A stretch of 64,000 nt of DNA. Source: Pseudorhodobacter sp. E13. Its GTDB lineage: Bacteria > Pseudomonadota > Alphaproteobacteria > Rhodobacterales > Rhodobacteraceae. The stretch's first letter is position 1, and every line of letters starts with the position of its first letter. Of this stretch, positions 34,842 to 49,414 are shown in pieces. The notes below the pieces were generated by a model. That model worked only from the letters and a program-made list of their open reading frames with translations, was not told the origin of the DNA and searched no databases. The translations under genes and the position numbers were made by a program. The stretch lies in assembly GCF_003991405.1 (NCBI RefSeq), contig NZ_RPEN01000152.1:62001-126000 (forward strand). Reading direction: 5' to 3'.

Positions 34842-35429
34842 ATGCATGGGCTGATCAATCGGGCACTTCAAAGCTTTTTGCTGGAAACGCATGGCCCTGT
34901 GAAATGGTCACAGATCAAGCGCGCGGCACGGCTGGGCTTTGAAAGCTTTGAGCCGATGCTGACCTATGACAAGGCGGTGACGGAATCCGTCATTACGGCG
35001 GCCTCAACCGTGCTTGTCCGCCCCCGCGAAAGCATATTGGAAGATCTGGGCACGTTCCTGGTGTCCAACCCCCATTCGGATGCGCTGCGCCGATTGCTGC
35101 GCTTTGGCGGGCTCAGCTTTACCGATTTTCTGCAAAGCCTTGAAGATACACGCGGGCGCGGCCATCTGGCCCTGCCTGATCTGGATATTCCGGTGCTGGA
35201 TTTGTTCGAAATTTCCCCTACACTTTTCACCTTGCAATGTTGTTATCCCATCGAAGGATGCGGCCATGCTATGGTCGGGTTGTTGCGGGCAATGGCAGAT
35301 GACTATGGCGCCTTGGTTCTGTTGGACCATGACGGACAAAGCCTTGATGGGGAAATGATCCTGATACAACTGCTCGAAACGGCCTATGCAGAGGGGCGGC
35401 GCTTTGAATTGACAACGTGGATTGAGTAA
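34842..35429 (+). CDS. H-NOX (HNOB)-like protein, likely without canonical heme ligands
   Basis: A 195-residue protein with the H-NOX opening MHGLINRALQSFLLETHG and overall H-NOX length and helix pattern. In heme-binding H-NOX proteins, a His around 102-105 is the proximal ligand and a Y-x-S-x-R motif binds the propionates. By eye-alignment to classical H-NOX sequences the His falls on Arg104 (in LEDTRGRGHLAL), with the nearest His at 108. The YxSxR place reads C-C-Y-P-I-E-G. So heme binding is doubtful or uses other residues. The gene is followed four bases later by a diguanylate cyclase, the usual H-NOX partner. The ATG at 34842 has a GGGGAA sequence upstream. Confidence 0.75.
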   Translation: MHGLINRALQSFLLETHGPVKWSQIKRAARLGFESFEPMLTYDKAVTESVITAASTVLVRPRESILEDLGTFLVSNPHSDALRRLLRFGGLSFTDFLQSLEDTRGRGHLALPDLDIPVLDLFEISPTLFTLQCCYPIEGCGHAMVGLLRAMADDYGALVLLDHDGQSLDGEMILIQLLETAYAEGRRFELTTWIE

Positions 35430-35432
35430 AGA

Positions 35433-36461
35433 TTGGTGGAACCGGTGAACGAAGCAAGCGTGATATCCAAAGGACTCGTGATCGGGCAGGCGGCGCTGAA
35501 CCGGCTGATGCCGATGCATATCTGGATTTCCGAAACCGGGGCCGTGCTGTCCTTTGGGGCAACGCTGGCCAAGATTTTCGGTGCAACCGCAGTTGAGGGG
35601 CAGGGTTTTTTCGACCTGTTCGAAGTGTTTCGCCCCGGTGGCATCTTTACCGTGGATGATTTGCGCCGCCGTGAGGGCGAGCGGTTGCAGATCAGCCCGA
35701 AACATGCCGCCGACATGCAGGCCCTGCGCGGCATCGCCGTGGCCTTGCCCGCAGGCGGTGTGCTGCTGAACCTGTCTTTCGGGATCGGGGTGATCAAGGC
35801 TGTTTCAACGCATCAACTGACGGATTCGGATTTCGCGGCAACCGATCTTGCGATGGAACTTTTGTATCTGGTTGAAACCAAAACCGCCGTGACCGAGGAA
35901 TTGCGCCAGTTGAACCTGCGTCTGCAAGGCGCGCGCGAAATCGCCGAGCAACAGGCGCTGACCGATACGCTGACAGGGCTGCGCAATCGCCGCGCGCTGG
36001 ATATGACTCTTGCGATGCTGATCGCCGAGAATGAGGCCTTCGGCCTGATGCATATTGATCTGGATTATTTCAAAGCGGTGAATGATAGCTTGGGCCATGC
36101 GGCTGGCGACCATGTGCTGCGCGAGGTTGCTGTCACGCTTTTGGCCGAAACCCGCAAAGGCGATACCGTGGCCCGTGTGGGCGGGGATGAATTTGTGATC
36201 GTGTTTCACGGTCTGACGGACGCAGCGCAGCTTTCCAATATCGCAAAACGTGTCGTCGCACGGCTCAGCGAGCCGAGCATGTTTCAAGGTGAAACCTGCC
36301 AGATTTCGGCCAGCATCGGCATCACCGTCTCAACCGATTACAACCCTCCGCAGGCCGAGCAGATGCTCAGCGATGCGGATGAGGCGCTTTATGCCTCCAA
36401 GAACGCCGGGCGCGGGCAGGCCAAGCTGTTCAAAGGCATGGATACGGAAAAGGCCCGTTAA
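35433..36461 (+). CDS. diguanylate cyclase with N-terminal HNOBA-like domain
   Basis: A 342-residue protein. Residues about 20-125 (PMHIWISETGAVLSFGATLA, EGQGFFDLFEVFRPGG) resemble the HNOB-associated domain of H-NOX signalling partners. A coiled coil spans about 145-175, and then comes a GGDEF domain. The active site is intact (R-V-G250-G-D-E-F254), and R241-K-G-D244 five residues upstream is a full inhibitory I-site. It should make c-di-GMP with product inhibition, controlled by the preceding H-NOX-like protein. The start is uncertain: TTG at 35433 or GTG at 35436 follow the H-NOX-like stop by a few bases. Confidence 0.85.
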   Translation: MVEPVNEASVISKGLVIGQAALNRLMPMHIWISETGAVLSFGATLAKIFGATAVEGQGFFDLFEVFRPGGIFTVDDLRRREGERLQISPKHAADMQALRGIAVALPAGGVLLNLSFGIGVIKAVSTHQLTDSDFAATDLAMELLYLVETKTAVTEELRQLNLRLQGAREIAEQQALTDTLTGLRNRRALDMTLAMLIAENEAFGLMHIDLDYFKAVNDSLGHAAGDHVLREVAVTLLAETRKGDTVARVGGDEFVIVFHGLTDAAQLSNIAKRVVARLSEPSMFQGETCQISASIGITVSTDYNPPQAEQMLSDADEALYASKNAGRGQAKLFKGMDTEKAR

Positions 36462-38100: not shown

Positions 38101-38144
38101 CGCGTGGCAACGCTTTCTTAGCAATTTGTGTTTAATTGTTGGGA

Positions 38145-38669
38145 ATGTCTTGTTATCGCCGCCGTATCCTGCCCGGAGCCACCTATTTCTTCACCGTCAA
38201 TCTGGCGGTGCGGGGGCAAAGCCTGCTGACTGACCAGATTGATCTGTTGCGGCAGGCCTATCGCGATACCATCGCCGAAAACCGGGTGTTTTGCGATGCG
38301 ATGGTGGTGCTGCCCGATCATCTGCACGCGGTGTGGACCTTGCCGCCCGGCGATGCAGGCTATTCGGAGCGTTGGCGCAGGATCAAGGCGCGGTTCAGCC
38401 ATGCCTTGGGGCAAGAACAGGGGCGCTCTGCCAGCAAAGCGGCCAAGCGCGAACGCGGGATCTGGCAGCGCAGATTTTGGGAACATGTGATCCGGGATGA
38501 TGCGGATTACGCGCGGCATGTCACCTATTGCTGGGGCGATCCGGTCCATCATGGGTTGGTATCACAGGCGCAGGATTGGCCGTTCTCTACCTTTCACCGG
38601 GATTTGCGCGCAGGGCGTGTGGATGCCGCATGGCGCCCGACACCTATGCAGGGGCGGTTCGGCGAGTAG
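38145..38669 (+). CDS. REP-associated tyrosine transposase (RAYT, Y1 family)
   Basis: A 174-residue HUH endonuclease of the IS200/IS605-like Y1 family that nicks and joins REP DNA. The HUH motif is H59-L-H61 in VVLPDHLHAVW, near the family-typical residue. The tail DYARHVTYCWGDPVHHGLVS holds the candidate catalytic tyrosines (Y122, Y128) in the Y-x-x-Y-x-x-x-N-P-V-like region, with Asp in place of Asn. The start is the ATG at 38145 (a TTG lies three codons earlier). REP palindromes flank it on both sides, so it is a non-mobile RAYT with its cognate sites. It is convergent with uvrB. Confidence 0.87.
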   Translation: MSCYRRRILPGATYFFTVNLAVRGQSLLTDQIDLLRQAYRDTIAENRVFCDAMVVLPDHLHAVWTLPPGDAGYSERWRRIKARFSHALGQEQGRSASKAAKRERGIWQRRFWEHVIRDDADYARHVTYCWGDPVHHGLVSQAQDWPFSTFHRDLRAGRVDAAWRPTPMQGRFGE

Positions 38670-44020: not shown

Positions 44021-44175
44021 GCCCGATATATCCAGCTTGTGATGTTTAGCCGCGCGGCTGCGCGGGTTGGCGATGATCTAGGGCTAAATTGCGCGCCGCG
44101 CACAGCCGGGAACGACCCAATTTTCCCGCCTGCGGCAGATTTGGCGCAGCAGCACAGGGCCACCCGGCGCTGGGG

Positions 44176-45483
44176 TCAGGGCCGCCGCTTGCGCCGATGC
44201 GCCGGGCCGATGCCCAAAGCTGCGCGGTATTTGGCCACCGTGCGGCGCGCAATCGGGGCGCCGGGGGCAGACAGCGCTTCGGCCAGCGCCTGATCGGACA
44301 GGGGGGCTGCGGCATCCTCCTGTTGCAGCAAACGGCCCAGCTTTGCGCGCAAGGCCCCGCCCGCCGCACCGCCTTCGCCCACCGGGGCGGTGAACAGGCG
44401 GCGCAACCAGATCGTGCCGCGCGGCGTATCGGCGCTGACCCCTGCAATCGCCCGGCTGATCGTGCTTTTGTGCAGCCCCAGCGCCGCCCCCACATCTTGC
44501 ATGCTCATCGGCTCCAACGCCTCCAGCCCGCGCGAAATTGTCGCCTCTTGCCGCAGCAGAATTTCCTGCGCAATCCGCAGCAAGGTCTGGTTGCGGCTGG
44601 CCACCATGCGCACAAGGTTGCGCGCCTCGGTCAGTGCCTCTGCCGCGCGGGCGGGGGGCAGGGGGGCACGCCCGGCCAGCGGCTTTTCGTGCAATTGCAC
44701 ATCGGGCAGGGCAGAGCGGTTCAGCGCCACGCGCCAGCCTTGCGGCCCGCGCGTTACCGTCAGATCGGGTTCGCGCACCGGGGCGGCGTTCTGGGTGAAT
44801 TGCGCGCCGGGTTTCGGGTCAAAGCTGCGGATGATGCGGATGCGCCGGGTGATCTCGGCGTCCTCGACCCGGCACATCCGGGCCAGTTCTGCAATCTGCC
44901 CTGCGGCGATCATGTCCAGATGCTCCAGCACGCAGCCCATCGTCGGGTCCAGATGGCCCGCCTCGGCCGCTTGCAGATGCAAACATTCGGCAAGCGACCG
45001 GGCAAACATCCCCGTCGGTTCCATTTGCTGCAACCGCGCCAGCACCGCGCCCGCCTCAGGCACCGAACAGCCGATCTGCGCGGCCAGCATCGGCAACGGT
45101 TGGCCCAACCAGCCCGAAGGTTCCAGCGCGTTCATCAACCCATAGGCAATCTCGCGCGGTCTGCCGGTGGGAAACAGCCGCTCGATCTGCCGCGTCACAT
45201 GCTCGATCAAGCCCAGCGAGGGGGCCTGCAACATCGCGGCGAAATCGGGCTGTTCGGCGCGGCCCATGCCATGAACGGCAAAAGCCGTCTGCCAACGCGG
45301 CAACCATTCGTCCGGTGCCACCGGCGCAGGGGCCAGCGACAGATGCGGGTTTTCGGCTGCCTGTTCCTCCAGATAGCGGGTCAGGCCCGAGGCATCAAAA
45401 CGCAGCACCCGGATCGAGGTGGCAAGCCCGACATTCAGCCGCAGCTTCTGGCTTTGGGTCAGGCGCTGTGCGGGTCGGGACAT
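44176..45483 (-). CDS. rpoN: RNA polymerase sigma-54 factor RpoN-like
   Basis: A 435-residue sigma-54 starting MSRPAQRLTQSQKLRLN. The N-terminal activator-contact region (region I) is followed by the core-binding region. The HTH segment MSMQDVGAALGLHKSTISRAI (about 320-340) matches the -12 element recogniser. The RpoN box is intact as ARRTVAKYR near residue 415. The acidic region II is short, and the usual F-F-S step reads RRLFTAPV. It recognises -24/-12 promoters with an enhancer-binding activator. Several rhodobacteria have more than one RpoN, and which regulon this copy serves cannot be told here. Confidence 0.87.
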   Translation of the reverse strand: MSRPAQRLTQSQKLRLNVGLATSIRVLRFDASGLTRYLEEQAAENPHLSLAPAPVAPDEWLPRWQTAFAVHGMGRAEQPDFAAMLQAPSLGLIEHVTRQIERLFPTGRPREIAYGLMNALEPSGWLGQPLPMLAAQIGCSVPEAGAVLARLQQMEPTGMFARSLAECLHLQAAEAGHLDPTMGCVLEHLDMIAAGQIAELARMCRVEDAEITRRIRIIRSFDPKPGAQFTQNAAPVREPDLTVTRGPQGWRVALNRSALPDVQLHEKPLAGRAPLPPARAAEALTEARNLVRMVASRNQTLLRIAQEILLRQEATISRGLEALEPMSMQDVGAALGLHKSTISRAIAGVSADTPRGTIWLRRLFTAPVGEGGAAGGALRAKLGRLLQQEDAAAPLSDQALAEALSAPGAPIARRTVAKYRAALGIGPAHRRKRRP

Positions 45484-45645
45484 GCGGGGCCTATGCAAGG
45501 GAATGGGGGGCAGGGGGTGAGGCTGGCCCGCAGACTAGGGTCTGCGCCCGGTTCACGCAACTGTGGCGATCGGGCCTCTCGTCATTGCGCGCGCCCCGCG
45601 ATAGGGTTTTGCCACAAGATAAGGGCAAGAAAGGACGCGCCACAG

Positions 45646-47835
45646 ATGCAAGGGGAAAGCTGGCCGCAGGTGCGCGATCTGGTCTTGATCGGCGGAGGGC
45701 ATGCCCATGCGCTTGTGCTGCGCAAATGGGGCATGGCCCCGCAGGCAGGCACCCGCGTCACCGTCATCAACCCCGGCCCGGTCGCCCCTTATACCGGCAT
45801 GTTGCCCGGCCATATCGCAGGCCATTACACACGGCCCGAGATGATGATCGACCTGATCCGTCTGGCCCGTTTTGCCGGTGCGCGCGCCATTCTGGACCGG
45901 GCTGTCGGGATTGACCGCGCCGCACAGCAGGTGGTGCTGCACTCGGGGCGCAGGTTGCGCTATGATGTGGCCTCGGTCGATATCGGCATCGCCTCTAACT
46001 TGCCGGGGCTGCCGGGGTTTGACCAGCACGCGGTCGCGGCCAAACCCTTGGGCGGCTACGCCGAACGCTGGGCCGCGTTTCTGGAAACCGCGCCCGCCGC
46101 CCCGCGTCTGGTCATCATCGGCGCAGGCGTGGGCGGGGCCGAGCTTGCGATGGCCTCTGCTCACCGCTTGGCAGGGTTGGGGCGGCAGGCGCAGATCACC
46201 TTGCTGGAACGCGCGCCATCGGCCTTGCCGCATATCGGGGCCGGTGCGCGCGCGGCCCTTTTGGCGCAGCTTCAGGCCCATGGCGTCACGGTGCTGACCA
46301 ATGCCACCCCGGCTGCGGTCGCGGCAGGCGCGGTCACGCTGGCGGATGGGCGGGTGCTGCCGTCCGATTTCACGCTGTCGGTGGCCGGGGCGCAGCCGCA
46401 GGGCTGGTTGGCCGAAACCGGTCTGGCTTTGCAGGATGGTTTCGTGCAGGTAGGGCCAAGCCTGCAAAGCTCTGACCCGTTGATCTTTGCTGTAGGCGAT
46501 TGCGCGCATATGGGTTTTGCCCCGCGCCCCAAGGCCGGGGTTTTTGCCGTGCGCCAAGCCCCGATCCTGTTTCATAACCTGCGCGCGGCCCTGTCAGGCG
46601 CGCCCCTGCGCCGCTATGCCCCGCAGCGCGATTACCTCAAGCTGATCTCGACCGGGCGCAAAAGCGCTGTGGCCGACAAGCTGGGCCTGCGGCTGGAAGG
46701 CGCGTGGCTCTGGCAGTGGAAAGACCGGATTGACCGTAAGTTCATGGCGAAATTTGCCGATTACCCTGCGATGCGCGGGCGTGGCCTGCCGCCTGATGCA
46801 GCGCAAGGTCTGGCCGAGGCGCTGGGCGACAAGCCTTTGTGCGGGGGCTGCGGGGCCAAGCTGGGGGCAGGGGCCTTGGGGGCGGCGCTGCAAACCCTGC
46901 CCGCGCCCGCCCGCGCCGATGTGTTTTCTGGTCCCGGCGATGATGCCGGGGTGCTGGGCTTTGGCGGCGTGCAGCAAGTGCTGACCACCGACCATCTGCG
47001 CGCCTTTACCCCCGATGCGGCGCTGATGGCGCGGATCACCGCCATTCACGCGCTGGGCGATATCTGGGCCATGGGGGCCAAGCCGCAATCGGCGCTGTCG
47101 CAGATCACCTTGCCCAAGGCCGCGCCTGCGCTGCATGCCGAAATGATGGCCGAAATTCTTGCCGCAGCGGCAGAGGTGTTCACTGAGGCGGGGGCCGATA
47201 TCTTGGGCGGCCATACATCGGTGGGGGCAGAGCTGACCATCGGTTTCAGCCTGACGGGGCTGGCGGATAAGGCGATCACCAAGACCGGGGCGCAACGCGG
47301 CGATGCGATCCTCCTGACCAAGCCTTTGGGCACCGGCACCGTTTTGGCCGCCGAAATGGCCATGGCCCGCTTGCCCGATCAGTTGTTGGGCGAGGCGGTC
47401 GCCGCTTGCTACGCCTCGATGCTGCGGCCTTTGGGTCCGGCCTCGGCCATCCTGTCGCTCCATGCCAGCGCGATGACCGATGTCACCGGCTTTGGTCTTG
47501 CCGGGCATCTGCTGGAAATGCTGGAAGGGGCGGGGCTGTCGGCGCGGCTGGATCTGTCTGCCATCCCGCTGTTGCCGGGGGCCGAGGCTTTGGCTGCGGC
47601 AGGTATCGCCTCGACCATCGCGCCCGCCAACCGCGCCTTGTGTCTGGGCCGGATCAAGGCCCCCAACAGCACCAAGGCGGCCTTGCTCTATGATCCGCAA
47701 ACCGCAGGCGGGCTGTTGGCCACGGTGCCCGCCGATTTGGCCCCGCAATTGATTGCGGCGCTGTCCCACGCCGGGGAAAGCGCCGCTGTGATCGGGTCTG
47801 TCGGGGATGGCCCGGTGATGCTGACCGTGGTTTAA
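45646..47835 (+). CDS. selD: selenide, water dikinase fused to an NADH dehydrogenase-like FAD domain
   Basis: A 729-residue two-domain protein. Residues about 1-385 form a pyridine-nucleotide:disulphide-type flavoprotein: RDLVLIGGGHAHALVLRKWG near the start, LVIIGAGVGGAELAMASA around 155, and FAVGDCAHMGF around 285. Residues about 395-729 are SelD: catalytic Cys and Lys in GGCGAKLGAGALG, then GPGDDAG and TTDHLRAFTPD, and GHTSVGAELTIGFSLTG. SelD makes selenophosphate for selenocysteine or selenouridine. The flavin part may supply redox control. No selA, selB or 2-selenouridine synthase gene is adjacent. The 3' end overlaps the convergent znuA end by four bases. Confidence 0.9.
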   Translation: MQGESWPQVRDLVLIGGGHAHALVLRKWGMAPQAGTRVTVINPGPVAPYTGMLPGHIAGHYTRPEMMIDLIRLARFAGARAILDRAVGIDRAAQQVVLHSGRRLRYDVASVDIGIASNLPGLPGFDQHAVAAKPLGGYAERWAAFLETAPAAPRLVIIGAGVGGAELAMASAHRLAGLGRQAQITLLERAPSALPHIGAGARAALLAQLQAHGVTVLTNATPAAVAAGAVTLADGRVLPSDFTLSVAGAQPQGWLAETGLALQDGFVQVGPSLQSSDPLIFAVGDCAHMGFAPRPKAGVFAVRQAPILFHNLRAALSGAPLRRYAPQRDYLKLISTGRKSAVADKLGLRLEGAWLWQWKDRIDRKFMAKFADYPAMRGRGLPPDAAQGLAEALGDKPLCGGCGAKLGAGALGAALQTLPAPARADVFSGPGDDAGVLGFGGVQQVLTTDHLRAFTPDAALMARITAIHALGDIWAMGAKPQSALSQITLPKAAPALHAEMMAEILAAAAEVFTEAGADILGGHTSVGAELTIGFSLTGLADKAITKTGAQRGDAILLTKPLGTGTVLAAEMAMARLPDQLLGEAVAACYASMLRPLGPASAILSLHASAMTDVTGFGLAGHLLEMLEGAGLSARLDLSAIPLLPGAEALAAAGIASTIAPANRALCLGRIKAPNSTKAALLYDPQTAGGLLATVPADLAPQLIAALSHAGESAAVIGSVGDGPVMLTVV

Positions 47836-48839
47836 CCCTGCGCGAGGCAAGCGGCCAGCGTGGTGGCAAGCCCCTGGATCAGCGCGCCGTAAAGCTCTGG
47901 CCCCGGCTCCAGCGTGGTGCCTTCCGGGTCCAGCATCCCGCCCAGCCGCAGCCCGGTGGCCTCGGCCAGTTGCGCCGCCGAGGCGCTGCCGTGATTGGCC
48001 TCGGGGAACAGGCAAACCGCGCCTTCCGCTTTCAACCGCGCCTCCAGTTCCTTGATATGCGCCGCCCCCGGTGCGGCGGCATCGCCTTCGCGCAGACTGC
48101 CCAGAACCTGCAAGCCGAAATGCCCGACGAAATAGCCATAAGCATCATGGAACACCGCAAAAGGCGTGTCCTTGACCGGGGCGAGGGTGGTGGCGACCTG
48201 CGCTTCAATCAGGTCAATCTCGGCCCGGCCTGCGGCGGCATTGGCGGCGTAAACCGGCGCGTTCTCTGGGTCCAGCGCCGAAAGCTCTGCCGCGATCACC
48301 TCCAGCCAGGTGCGCGCATTGACCGGGTCCAGCCAGGCATGGGGGTCGATGCCGTCCTTGTCATGCGCGTGGTCGTCATGCCCATGGTCGTCATGCCCAT
48401 GGTCGTCATGCGCGTGGTCATCATGGCCATGGTCGTCTTGGGCCGCTTCCTCTTTATGGTCGTCATGCCCATGCGCGCTGTGGTCATGCGCCTCGGTCGC
48501 GTCGCCCCATTTGCGCGTTTCGGTTCCCGCCGCCGCCAACAGCGGGACCGAGCGGGCCTGAGCGCCAAGCCCGTCCAGCCCGCGCGTCAACCAAGGGCTC
48601 AGCTCCGGGCCGACCCAAATCACCAAAGCCGCCTCGGACAGGCTTTGCGCCTGACTGGGGCGCAGTTGGAAATCATGCGGGTCCGCCCCGCGCGGCAGCA
48701 ACACCTCTGGTGCCGCCAGATCGCCCATCACCATGGCCACCAGCGCATGCACCGGCGCGATATCGGTGACAACCTTCGGCACCTCGGCCCAGACGGGTTG
48801 GCTGAAGGCCAGAAACAGTGGCAGGGAAAGGGCACGCAT
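47832..48839 (-). CDS. znuA: zinc ABC transporter substrate-binding protein ZnuA
   Basis: A 335-residue periplasmic zinc receptor with signal peptide MRALSLPLFLAFSQPVWA. Zinc-ligand contexts are ADPHDFQLRPSQ, DPHAWLDP and FHDAYGYF. Between the first two is a long His/Asp loop of HDDHGHDDHAHDDH type (about 115-160), encoded by imperfect 15-bp repeats, which likely senses or collects zinc. The start at 48839 lies 90 bases from zur, and two palindromes between them fit Zur boxes, so it should be repressed by zinc-bound Zur. Confidence 0.92.
   Translation of the reverse strand: MRALSLPLFLAFSQPVWAEVPKVVTDIAPVHALVAMVMGDLAAPEVLLPRGADPHDFQLRPSQAQSLSEAALVIWVGPELSPWLTRGLDGLGAQARSVPLLAAAGTETRKWGDATEAHDHSAHGHDDHKEEAAQDDHGHDDHAHDDHGHDDHGHDDHAHDKDGIDPHAWLDPVNARTWLEVIAAELSALDPENAPVYAANAAAGRAEIDLIEAQVATTLAPVKDTPFAVFHDAYGYFVGHFGLQVLGSLREGDAAAPGAAHIKELEARLKAEGAVCLFPEANHGSASAAQLAEATGLRLGGMLDPEGTTLEPGPELYGALIQGLATTLAACLAQG
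48361..48440. repeat. imperfect 15-bp tandem repeat in znuA
   Basis: The unit TCATGCCCATGGTCG (on the + strand) recurs with small changes about five times. It encodes the H-D-D-H-G/A repeats of the ZnuA histidine loop. Repeat number probably varies among strains. Confidence 0.75.
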
Positions 48840-48881
48840 AAGGGAAACTCCTGTCTTGTCGTGGGGTCGTGGCTGGGTTAT

Positions 48882-48918
48882 GTTATGATATAACGATAAA
48901 TATGTTACGATATAACAT
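48882..48918. promoter_or_regulatory. two Zur-box-like palindromes between znuA and zur
   Basis: GTTATGATATAAC (48882-48894) and ATGTTACGATATAACAT (48902-48918) are both centred on GAT and separated by seven bases. They match the AT-rich GTTAT/ATAAC form of alphaproteobacterial Zur sites and lie in the shared spacer of znuA and zur. Zinc-loaded Zur probably represses both sides here. The second one overlaps an alternative upstream ATG of zur, so the ATG at 48932 is preferred. Confidence 0.75.
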
Positions 48919-48931
48919 GTCAAGGCGGAAA

Positions 48932-49414
48932 ATGACCCCGAAACCAGATGCCTTCCACAGCCACGACCACCGCCATTGCAGCGATCAGGGCCTGCAACGG
49001 GCCGAGGAGATTTTGCAAAGCCGCAAACTGCGGCTGACCCCGGTGCGCAGGCAAGCGCTGCAAATCCTGTTGGCCGAACATCGCGCGTTGGGGGCCTATG
49101 AGGTGCTGGAACGGCTGGCAGCAGCGGGGTTCGGCAACCAACCACCTGTGGCGTATCGCGCGCTGGAATTTCTTGTTGAACAAGGGCTTGCCCATAAGGT
49201 GCGGCGCCTGAACGCCTTTGCCGCCTGCATGCATCCCGAAACCGACCACGCCCCGGTGTTCCTGATTTGCCGGGGCTGCAACGCGTTGGCCGAAACCCCG
49301 GCCGAACAGGTGCGCGCGGCGCTGAATGCCGCCGCCCATGCCGCAGGCTTCACCGTGGAACGCACCAGTATCGAGGCCCTTGGCCTGTGCCCCGCCTGCG
49401 AGGCCGCGGCATGA
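48932..49414 (+). CDS. zur: zinc uptake regulator Zur (Fur family)
   Basis: A 160-residue repressor. The winged HTH includes LQRAEEILQSRKLRLTPVRRQ and YEVLERLAAAGFGNQPPVAY. The C-terminal zinc/dimerisation part has structural-zinc cysteines (ICRGC and LCPAC) and the HAPVFLICRGCN segment. The ATG at 48932 has AAGGCGG just upstream; the in-frame ATG at 48917 lies inside an operator. The N-terminus is His-rich (HSHDHRH). It is first in the zur-znuC-znuB operon and overlaps znuC by ATGA. Confidence 0.92.
   Translation: MTPKPDAFHSHDHRHCSDQGLQRAEEILQSRKLRLTPVRRQALQILLAEHRALGAYEVLERLAAAGFGNQPPVAYRALEFLVEQGLAHKVRRLNAFAACMHPETDHAPVFLICRGCNALAETPAEQVRAALNAAAHAAGFTVERTSIEALGLCPACEAAA

Follow-up and report, generated by a model that had tools for sequence, protein, structure and literature searches.

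An H-NOX-like protein lacking the canonical heme-holding residues and its diguanylate cyclase partner in Pseudorhodobacter and other Rhodobacteraceae

The window analyzed here, i.e. the whole stretch of 64,000 nucleotides from Pseudorhodobacter sp. E13, encodes an H-NOX-like protein in which the residues holding the heme of canonical H-NOX proteins are replaced, followed on the same strand by a diguanylate cyclase. Such a loss of heme-holding residues is usual for this family in Rhodobacteraceae and not a local oddity. We propose, with a probability of roughly 70%, that the pair consists of a Group 5-type H-NOX and its own HNOBA-GGDEF cyclase, and that the H-NOX-like protein would be a dedicated regulatory subunit devoid of His-ligated heme, whose input would be something else than the breaking of an Fe-His bond.

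The H-NOX-like protein and its cyclase in the window

The H-NOX-like protein (Table 1) belongs to the HNOB fold family, with a score of 59.6 bits against the Pfam model PF07700 for a cut-off of 25.5; an NCBIfam search with the same protein returned no family at E<=0.01. Its N-terminal M-H-G-L is found in 21 of 23 aligned relatives, and its best solved relative by sequence alignment is Alr2278 from Nostoc (E 1.5e-14). The AlphaFold2 model computed from a 24-row alignment (mean pLDDT 85.0, pTM 0.81) superimposes on chain B of human soluble guanylate cyclase (8hbf; Z 22.6, rmsd 2.0, 177 aligned) as well as on the Nostoc H-NOX (2o09; Z 21.9, rmsd 2.3, 178 aligned), and the top 42 structural matches are all H-NOX or soluble guanylate cyclase entries. 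The predicted structure is that of a conserved H-NOX fold.

Canonical H-NOX proteins bind heme with a proximal His and with a Y-x-S-x-R motif, the Y, S and R of which contact the heme propionates; neither is present in the window protein. In the pairwise alignment with Alr2278, Arg104 sits opposite His105, which we take to be the proximal heme ligand, and C133, Y135 and I137 occupy the columns of Y, S and R. Both losses had been noticed by eye in the initial annotation and are confirmed by these alignments, as are the intact GGDEF motif and the full RxxD site that it reported for the neighboring cyclase. The same annotation also considered that a shifted histidine, His108, could replace the proximal ligand. 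We rejected this candidate, as residue 108 is a His in only 5 of the 236 relatives described below; the eight further Pseudorhodobacter genomes have Q, R or K there.

Table 1. Positions of the H-NOX-like gene, of its cyclase partner and of their main features in the window.
Feature	Position	Strand	Basis or remark
hnox-like gene, HNOB domain, Group 5-type H-NOX	34842..35429	+	195 aa ORF; PF07700
Codon 104, CGC = Arg, proximal heme-histidine position	35151..35153	+	Alignment to Alr2278; column 104 in relatives
Codon 108, CAT = His, proposed shifted ligand	35163..35165	+	His in 5/236 relatives
Codons 133-137, C-C-Y-P-I replacing Y-x-S-x-R	35238..35252	+	Columns defined on the canonical locus L063
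Diguanylate cyclase gene (342 aa), with HNOBA-like domain, helix and GGDEF	35433..36461	+	TTG start or later
HNOBA-like domain of the cyclase	35484..35702	+	22.3 bits, just below the 23.4 cut-off
Long predicted helix, residues 139-177, between N-terminal domain and GGDEF	35847..35963	+	AlphaFold2
RKGD inhibitory-site motif and GGDEF active-site motif	36153..36194	+	Sequence

The cyclase frame can begin three bases past the stop codon of the H-NOX-like gene. Its GGDEF domain scores 145.7 bits, and the RKGD (RxxD) sequence lies five residues ahead of the GGDEF motif. The HNOBA domain is recognized at E<=0.01 in 22 of 24 aligned cyclases, the window's own match falling just under the cut-off (Table 1). 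In the AlphaFold2 model of the cyclase (mean pLDDT 88.5), an N-terminal mixed domain is followed by the long helix and then by the GGDEF domain, the pTM of 0.54 making the placement of the domains uncertain; the model matches 4iob, a GGDEF domain, with a Z of 23.0.

Three GGDEF matches are found in the whole genome, so that the pair would contribute a considerable share of the c-di-GMP supply. The single HNOB match of this genome is the window gene, and no canonical H-NOX was found in it. The genome also contains an NnrS-family gene (183.7 bits), and the NirK model TIGR02376 gave only sub-cut-off matches in it, the best with 71.6 of 296.3 bits. A perfect CtrA site (TTAA-N7-TTAA) occurs in one of 202 upstream regions versus a mean of 0.295 after shuffling, and none lies upstream of the window's pair. 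Elsewhere in the window, we observed by eye a frame resembling a REP-associated tyrosine transposase (38136-38669, + strand), a frame whose later part looks like an FAD-dependent oxidoreductase fused to selenide water dikinase (SelD; 44089-47835, + strand) and a frame with a long His/Asp-rich stretch reminiscent of ZnuA-type zinc-binding proteins (47832-49145, - strand).

Distribution and residue pattern among relatives

The gene is present in nine of nine Pseudorhodobacter genomes. Across 295 Rhodobacteraceae genomes sampled from different genera, a relative of the window protein was detected at E<=0.001 in 216, an HNOB match in 221 and a relative of the N-terminal part of the cyclase in 212; one genome, G109, has an HNOB match and no match to the window protein. 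Loci were called canonical or divergent according to whichever of two profiles scored higher. Divergent H-NOX proteins are thereby found in about 211 of the 295 genera, approximately seven in ten, and canonical ones in 27 genomes (loci L063-L088 and L090), the partial matches of G228 and G038 standing outside this classification. Eighteen HNOB matches came from a class-wide sample of 385 genomes: 5 belong to Rhodobacteraceae and 13 to other families. Twelve of the latter sort as canonical, and the remaining one (L252, 56.7 bits) is unsorted.

The 245 divergent loci come from 210 of the about 211 genera, from 24 named records, which include genera sampled a second time among the 295 genomes, and from the genus Pseudorhodobacter. 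G044 (L279 and L287, on one contig) and G069 (L282 and L286, on two contigs) appear among them twice, their genes being split, and G254 contributes two divergent loci. Nine loci identical in their first 150 residues were removed, which leaves 236 rows for the residue counts. The tree, the count of His changes, the H98 table and the dN/dS values used the first 195 rows or fewer, so that 41 genera, mostly lower-scoring, enter the 236-row counts only. Of 40 canonical H-NOX sequences collected, 38 were aligned, L247 and L248 being left out. The divergent gene is interrupted by an in-frame TAA in L109 (G279) and L305 (G184), and that of G044 (L279) matches in two pieces on one contig; single losses thus occur. 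L109 is counted among the 17 rows with His at position 104.

The 236 relatives carry at this position Pro in 164 cases, followed by His (17), Arg (16), Gln (12), Asn (6), Ala (5), Ser (5), Gly (3), Thr (3), Glu (2), Asp (1) and Lys (1), with one gap, and in the nine Pseudorhodobacter genomes it is Arg eight times and Pro once. A complete Y-x-S-x-R motif is found in none of the 236 Rhodobacteraceae relatives. In the 38 aligned canonical sequences, the same four columns hold H (37), Y (38), S (37) and R (38). The former Y column, 133, is mostly occupied by C, V, I or L, with Cys in 137 of 236 relatives. On a tree built without column 104 (195 divergent rows, 15 of them with His, plus L063), at least 12 changes between His and not-His have to be assumed; His104 rows frequently stand beside P, N, A or T rows, although some are grouped together. 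Judging from these sequences, position 104 looks free of heme constraint. The initial statement that H-NOX/cyclase pairs normally report NO through heme is thus unfit for this lineage, where few relatives keep the His and where its loss had already been printed. What is supported is that NO sensing through a His-ligated heme is not to be taken for granted and that the pair may sense something else.

Other positions are strongly kept. The fold residues G70, P117 and G146 are each present in 234 of 236 relatives, and E67 (230), D68 (229), R83 (233), R84 (234), R87 (235), G90 (231), D153 (232), Y155 (231) and G156 (233) are near-invariant; except for G156, these near-invariant residues differ from the commonest canonical residue. 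Comparing the H-NOX-like gene with seven congeners gave dN/dS ratios of about 0.12-0.18, and the two closest congeners gave about 0.05, some of the dS values being close to saturation. Purifying selection acts on the gene, and these ratios speak against a pseudogene.

The association with the cyclase is constant. Directly behind the divergent H-NOX, a same-strand cyclase similar to that of the window was found in all 242 loci with room for it, three further loci ending at a contig end; its estimated start ranges from 58 bases before to 152 bases after the H-NOX stop. Of these 242 cyclases, 239 have the GGDEF motif, and 234 of the latter also have RxxD; the three frames without GGDEF are short (88, 199 and 270 residues). 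Scores of the cyclase N-terminal domain are low in L098, L105 and L204. Conversely, three sampled genomes show a match to the cyclase N-terminal part and no divergent H-NOX: G302 has a canonical H-NOX, in G119 the cyclase match starts at base 50 of a contig, and G036, a genome 86% complete, has a weak match and no H-NOX match at all. This last case is a counterpoint to the constant pairing.

Origin, proposed mode of action and alternatives

All 195 divergent rows group in a single clade (FastTree support 100). The nearest sequence, placed with a weak support of 33, is L063 from G302, a canonical H-NOX with His and Y-x-S-x-R whose downstream neighbor is an HNOBA-like GGDEF protein. The ancestor may thus plausibly have been an NO-type H-NOX paired with an HNOBA cyclase. 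One could tentatively imagine, at slightly less than even odds, that an NO sensor became, throughout the family, a permanent, heme-independent subunit of a c-di-GMP cyclase; Y-x-S-x-R would have been lost at the base of the family and the ligand position would then have drifted, the His of the NO-responsive Dinoroseobacter shibae protein being a scattered relic or regain and not the rule.

Several neighborhoods were also viewed by eye. The protein behind L063 continues towards an EAL domain, and the L063 pair could be a living image of the ancestral H-NOX/cyclase pair. Among five further canonical Rhodobacteraceae loci, L065, L074 and L082 are followed by a histidine kinase with receiver domains and not by a cyclase, and L068 and L110 gave no clear reading. 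Outside the family, the H-NOX genes L237 and L239 each precede a gene whose product looks like a histidine kinase with an HNOBA-like N-terminus.

By analogy with soluble guanylate cyclase, the H-NOX-like protein would dock on the HNOBA part of its partner and set the cyclase activity, probably as an inhibitor. This sign is suggested by the inhibition of Dgc1 in D. shibae and by the opposite biofilm phenotypes of hnoX and dgcAB mutants in Paracoccus denitrificans, both described below. Regulation would proceed without His-ligated heme, and the input could be another ligand in the old pocket, redox, protein partners or the abundance of the H-NOX-like protein itself. Two residues count as points against this proposal and could matter, namely Cys133 and H98, the latter being His in 131 of 236 relatives and Gln in the window protein.

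H98 is also an argument for the idea that heme is still bound through another residue and that the pair senses NO or another gas. This residue lies in the same predicted helix, and the same-clade D. shibae H-NOX is listed as heme-based (PMC8846402). However, H98 is not found in the window protein, nor in 5 of the 8 other Pseudorhodobacter genomes, no His at all is present in residues 95-112 of 64 of 195 relatives, and Y, S and R are never all kept. The frequency of H98 in the 195 rows is 95/138 with Pro at position 104, 10/15 with His and 18/42 with other residues, from which it follows that H98 is no replacement for the missing His104. We therefore rejected it as a substitute ligand and hold heme binding by another residue to be improbable. 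Two other candidate sites were discarded as well: only column 133 has Cys in more than one third of the relatives (127/195), which does not make a Cys-based zinc site, and the CP heme-regulatory motif occurs in 4 of 195.

Less easily dismissed, albeit still unlikely, is the assumption that some other hydrophobic molecule occupies the emptied pocket and that the pair detects a lipid-like or tetrapyrrole compound. The fold is kept, the residues now found in the former Y column would agree with such a ligand, Bet3-type proteins appear among the structural matches at Z 8.9, and the title of a related entry at Z 8.7 names palmitic acid as bound; a Z near 9 may nevertheless reflect just a common arrangement. 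As for a decaying H-NOX-like gene next to a cyclase that alone matters, one could invoke the 12 residue types seen at position 104, the in-frame TAA of G279 and G184 and the match in two pieces of G044. The dN/dS values of 0.05-0.18 within the genus (dS partly near saturation), the near-invariant new positions and the unbroken linkage to the cyclase make it hardly credible. A dedicated regulatory subunit without His-ligated heme remains the reading that we prefer.

Comparison with known systems

Loss of the proximal His in such H-NOX proteins is already known (PMC8738867, PMC5588039). In a limited literature search, we saw no description of the loss of Y-x-S-x-R, of the constant pairing with a cyclase or of the scattered His, which we consider as new; PMC9756655 makes no mention of HNOB, heme, nitric oxide, H-NOX or HNOBA. 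In the Group 5 cluster, built around the H-NOX of P. denitrificans, less than 10% of the members keep the proximal His and most have Pro, and GGDEF is named among the neighbor families in a figure legend (PMC8738867). Our counts of 17 His and 164 Pro in 236 relatives agree with this description, and the divergent clade fits the published Group 5, as judged from the description of the cluster and not from its sequence list. Two differences can be pointed out: the window protein has Arg where Group 5 mostly has Pro, and Group 5 is described in PMC8738867 as having no conserved Cys, whereas more than half of our relatives have Cys133.

The H-NOX proteins of P. denitrificans and Rhodobacter sphaeroides have been printed as lacking the axial His (PMC5588039). 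According to the same paper, hnoX and the gene of a GGDEF protein overlap in P. denitrificans, the hnoX mutant shows a partial defect in attached growth and the dgcAB mutant makes biofilm in excess, which suggests that HnoX opposes DgcA. HnoX/DgcA thus resembles, by its description, the window pair: an H-NOX without axial His and a GGDEF partner. c-di-GMP was reported as not measurable in P. denitrificans to back the inhibition model (PMC12582929).

In D. shibae, the NO-bound H-NOX is reported to inhibit Dgc1 (PMC7232146 and PMC8846402, citing Bedrunka 2018). This protein is tabulated as a heme NO sensor (PMC8846402), and its gene, the single H-NOX gene of the species, adjoins dgc1 (PMC6473078). 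It corresponds to our locus L093 in G043, a genome that includes a contig of 190,506 bases, the first 6,000 of which are identical to those of the equally long D. shibae plasmid NC_009955.1. L093 is the sole HNOB match of this genome, stands beside a cyclase like the window gene and falls within the divergent clade. It differs from the window protein in keeping His at position 104 (DDLHDR) and the Arg of Y-x-S-x-R, the full motif being absent. The NO-responsive H-NOX of D. shibae is thus a His-retaining member of the clade, a point that we add here. As it documents NO control in such a member, this report is the strongest evidence against our proposal.

The D. shibae and P. denitrificans relatives are discussed in print as NO sensors, and the NO-based models in Rhodobacteraceae would need re-testing if the heme is gone. 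How Group 5 H-NOX proteins sense anything is an open question (PMC8738867), which becomes directly testable with the natural variants carrying His, Pro or Arg beside the same type of cyclase. Heme-free signaling has a precedent in the redox-active H-NOX of Vibrio cholerae (PMC7108781). The group of the Vibrio protein differs from our clade in keeping the His and three zinc-binding Cys, as compared with a single Cys column above one third here.

A further parallel can be drawn with soluble guanylate cyclase, which shares the H-NOX fold and whose HNOBA domain has a putative counterpart in the cyclase of the window pair. The H-NOX domain of its alpha subunit is not known to carry heme, and chain A of 7d9r, presumably this subunit, matches the H-NOX-like model with a Z of 8.9 only. 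Soluble guanylate cyclase has a class III catalytic domain, whereas the window encodes two separate proteins and relies on a GGDEF domain.
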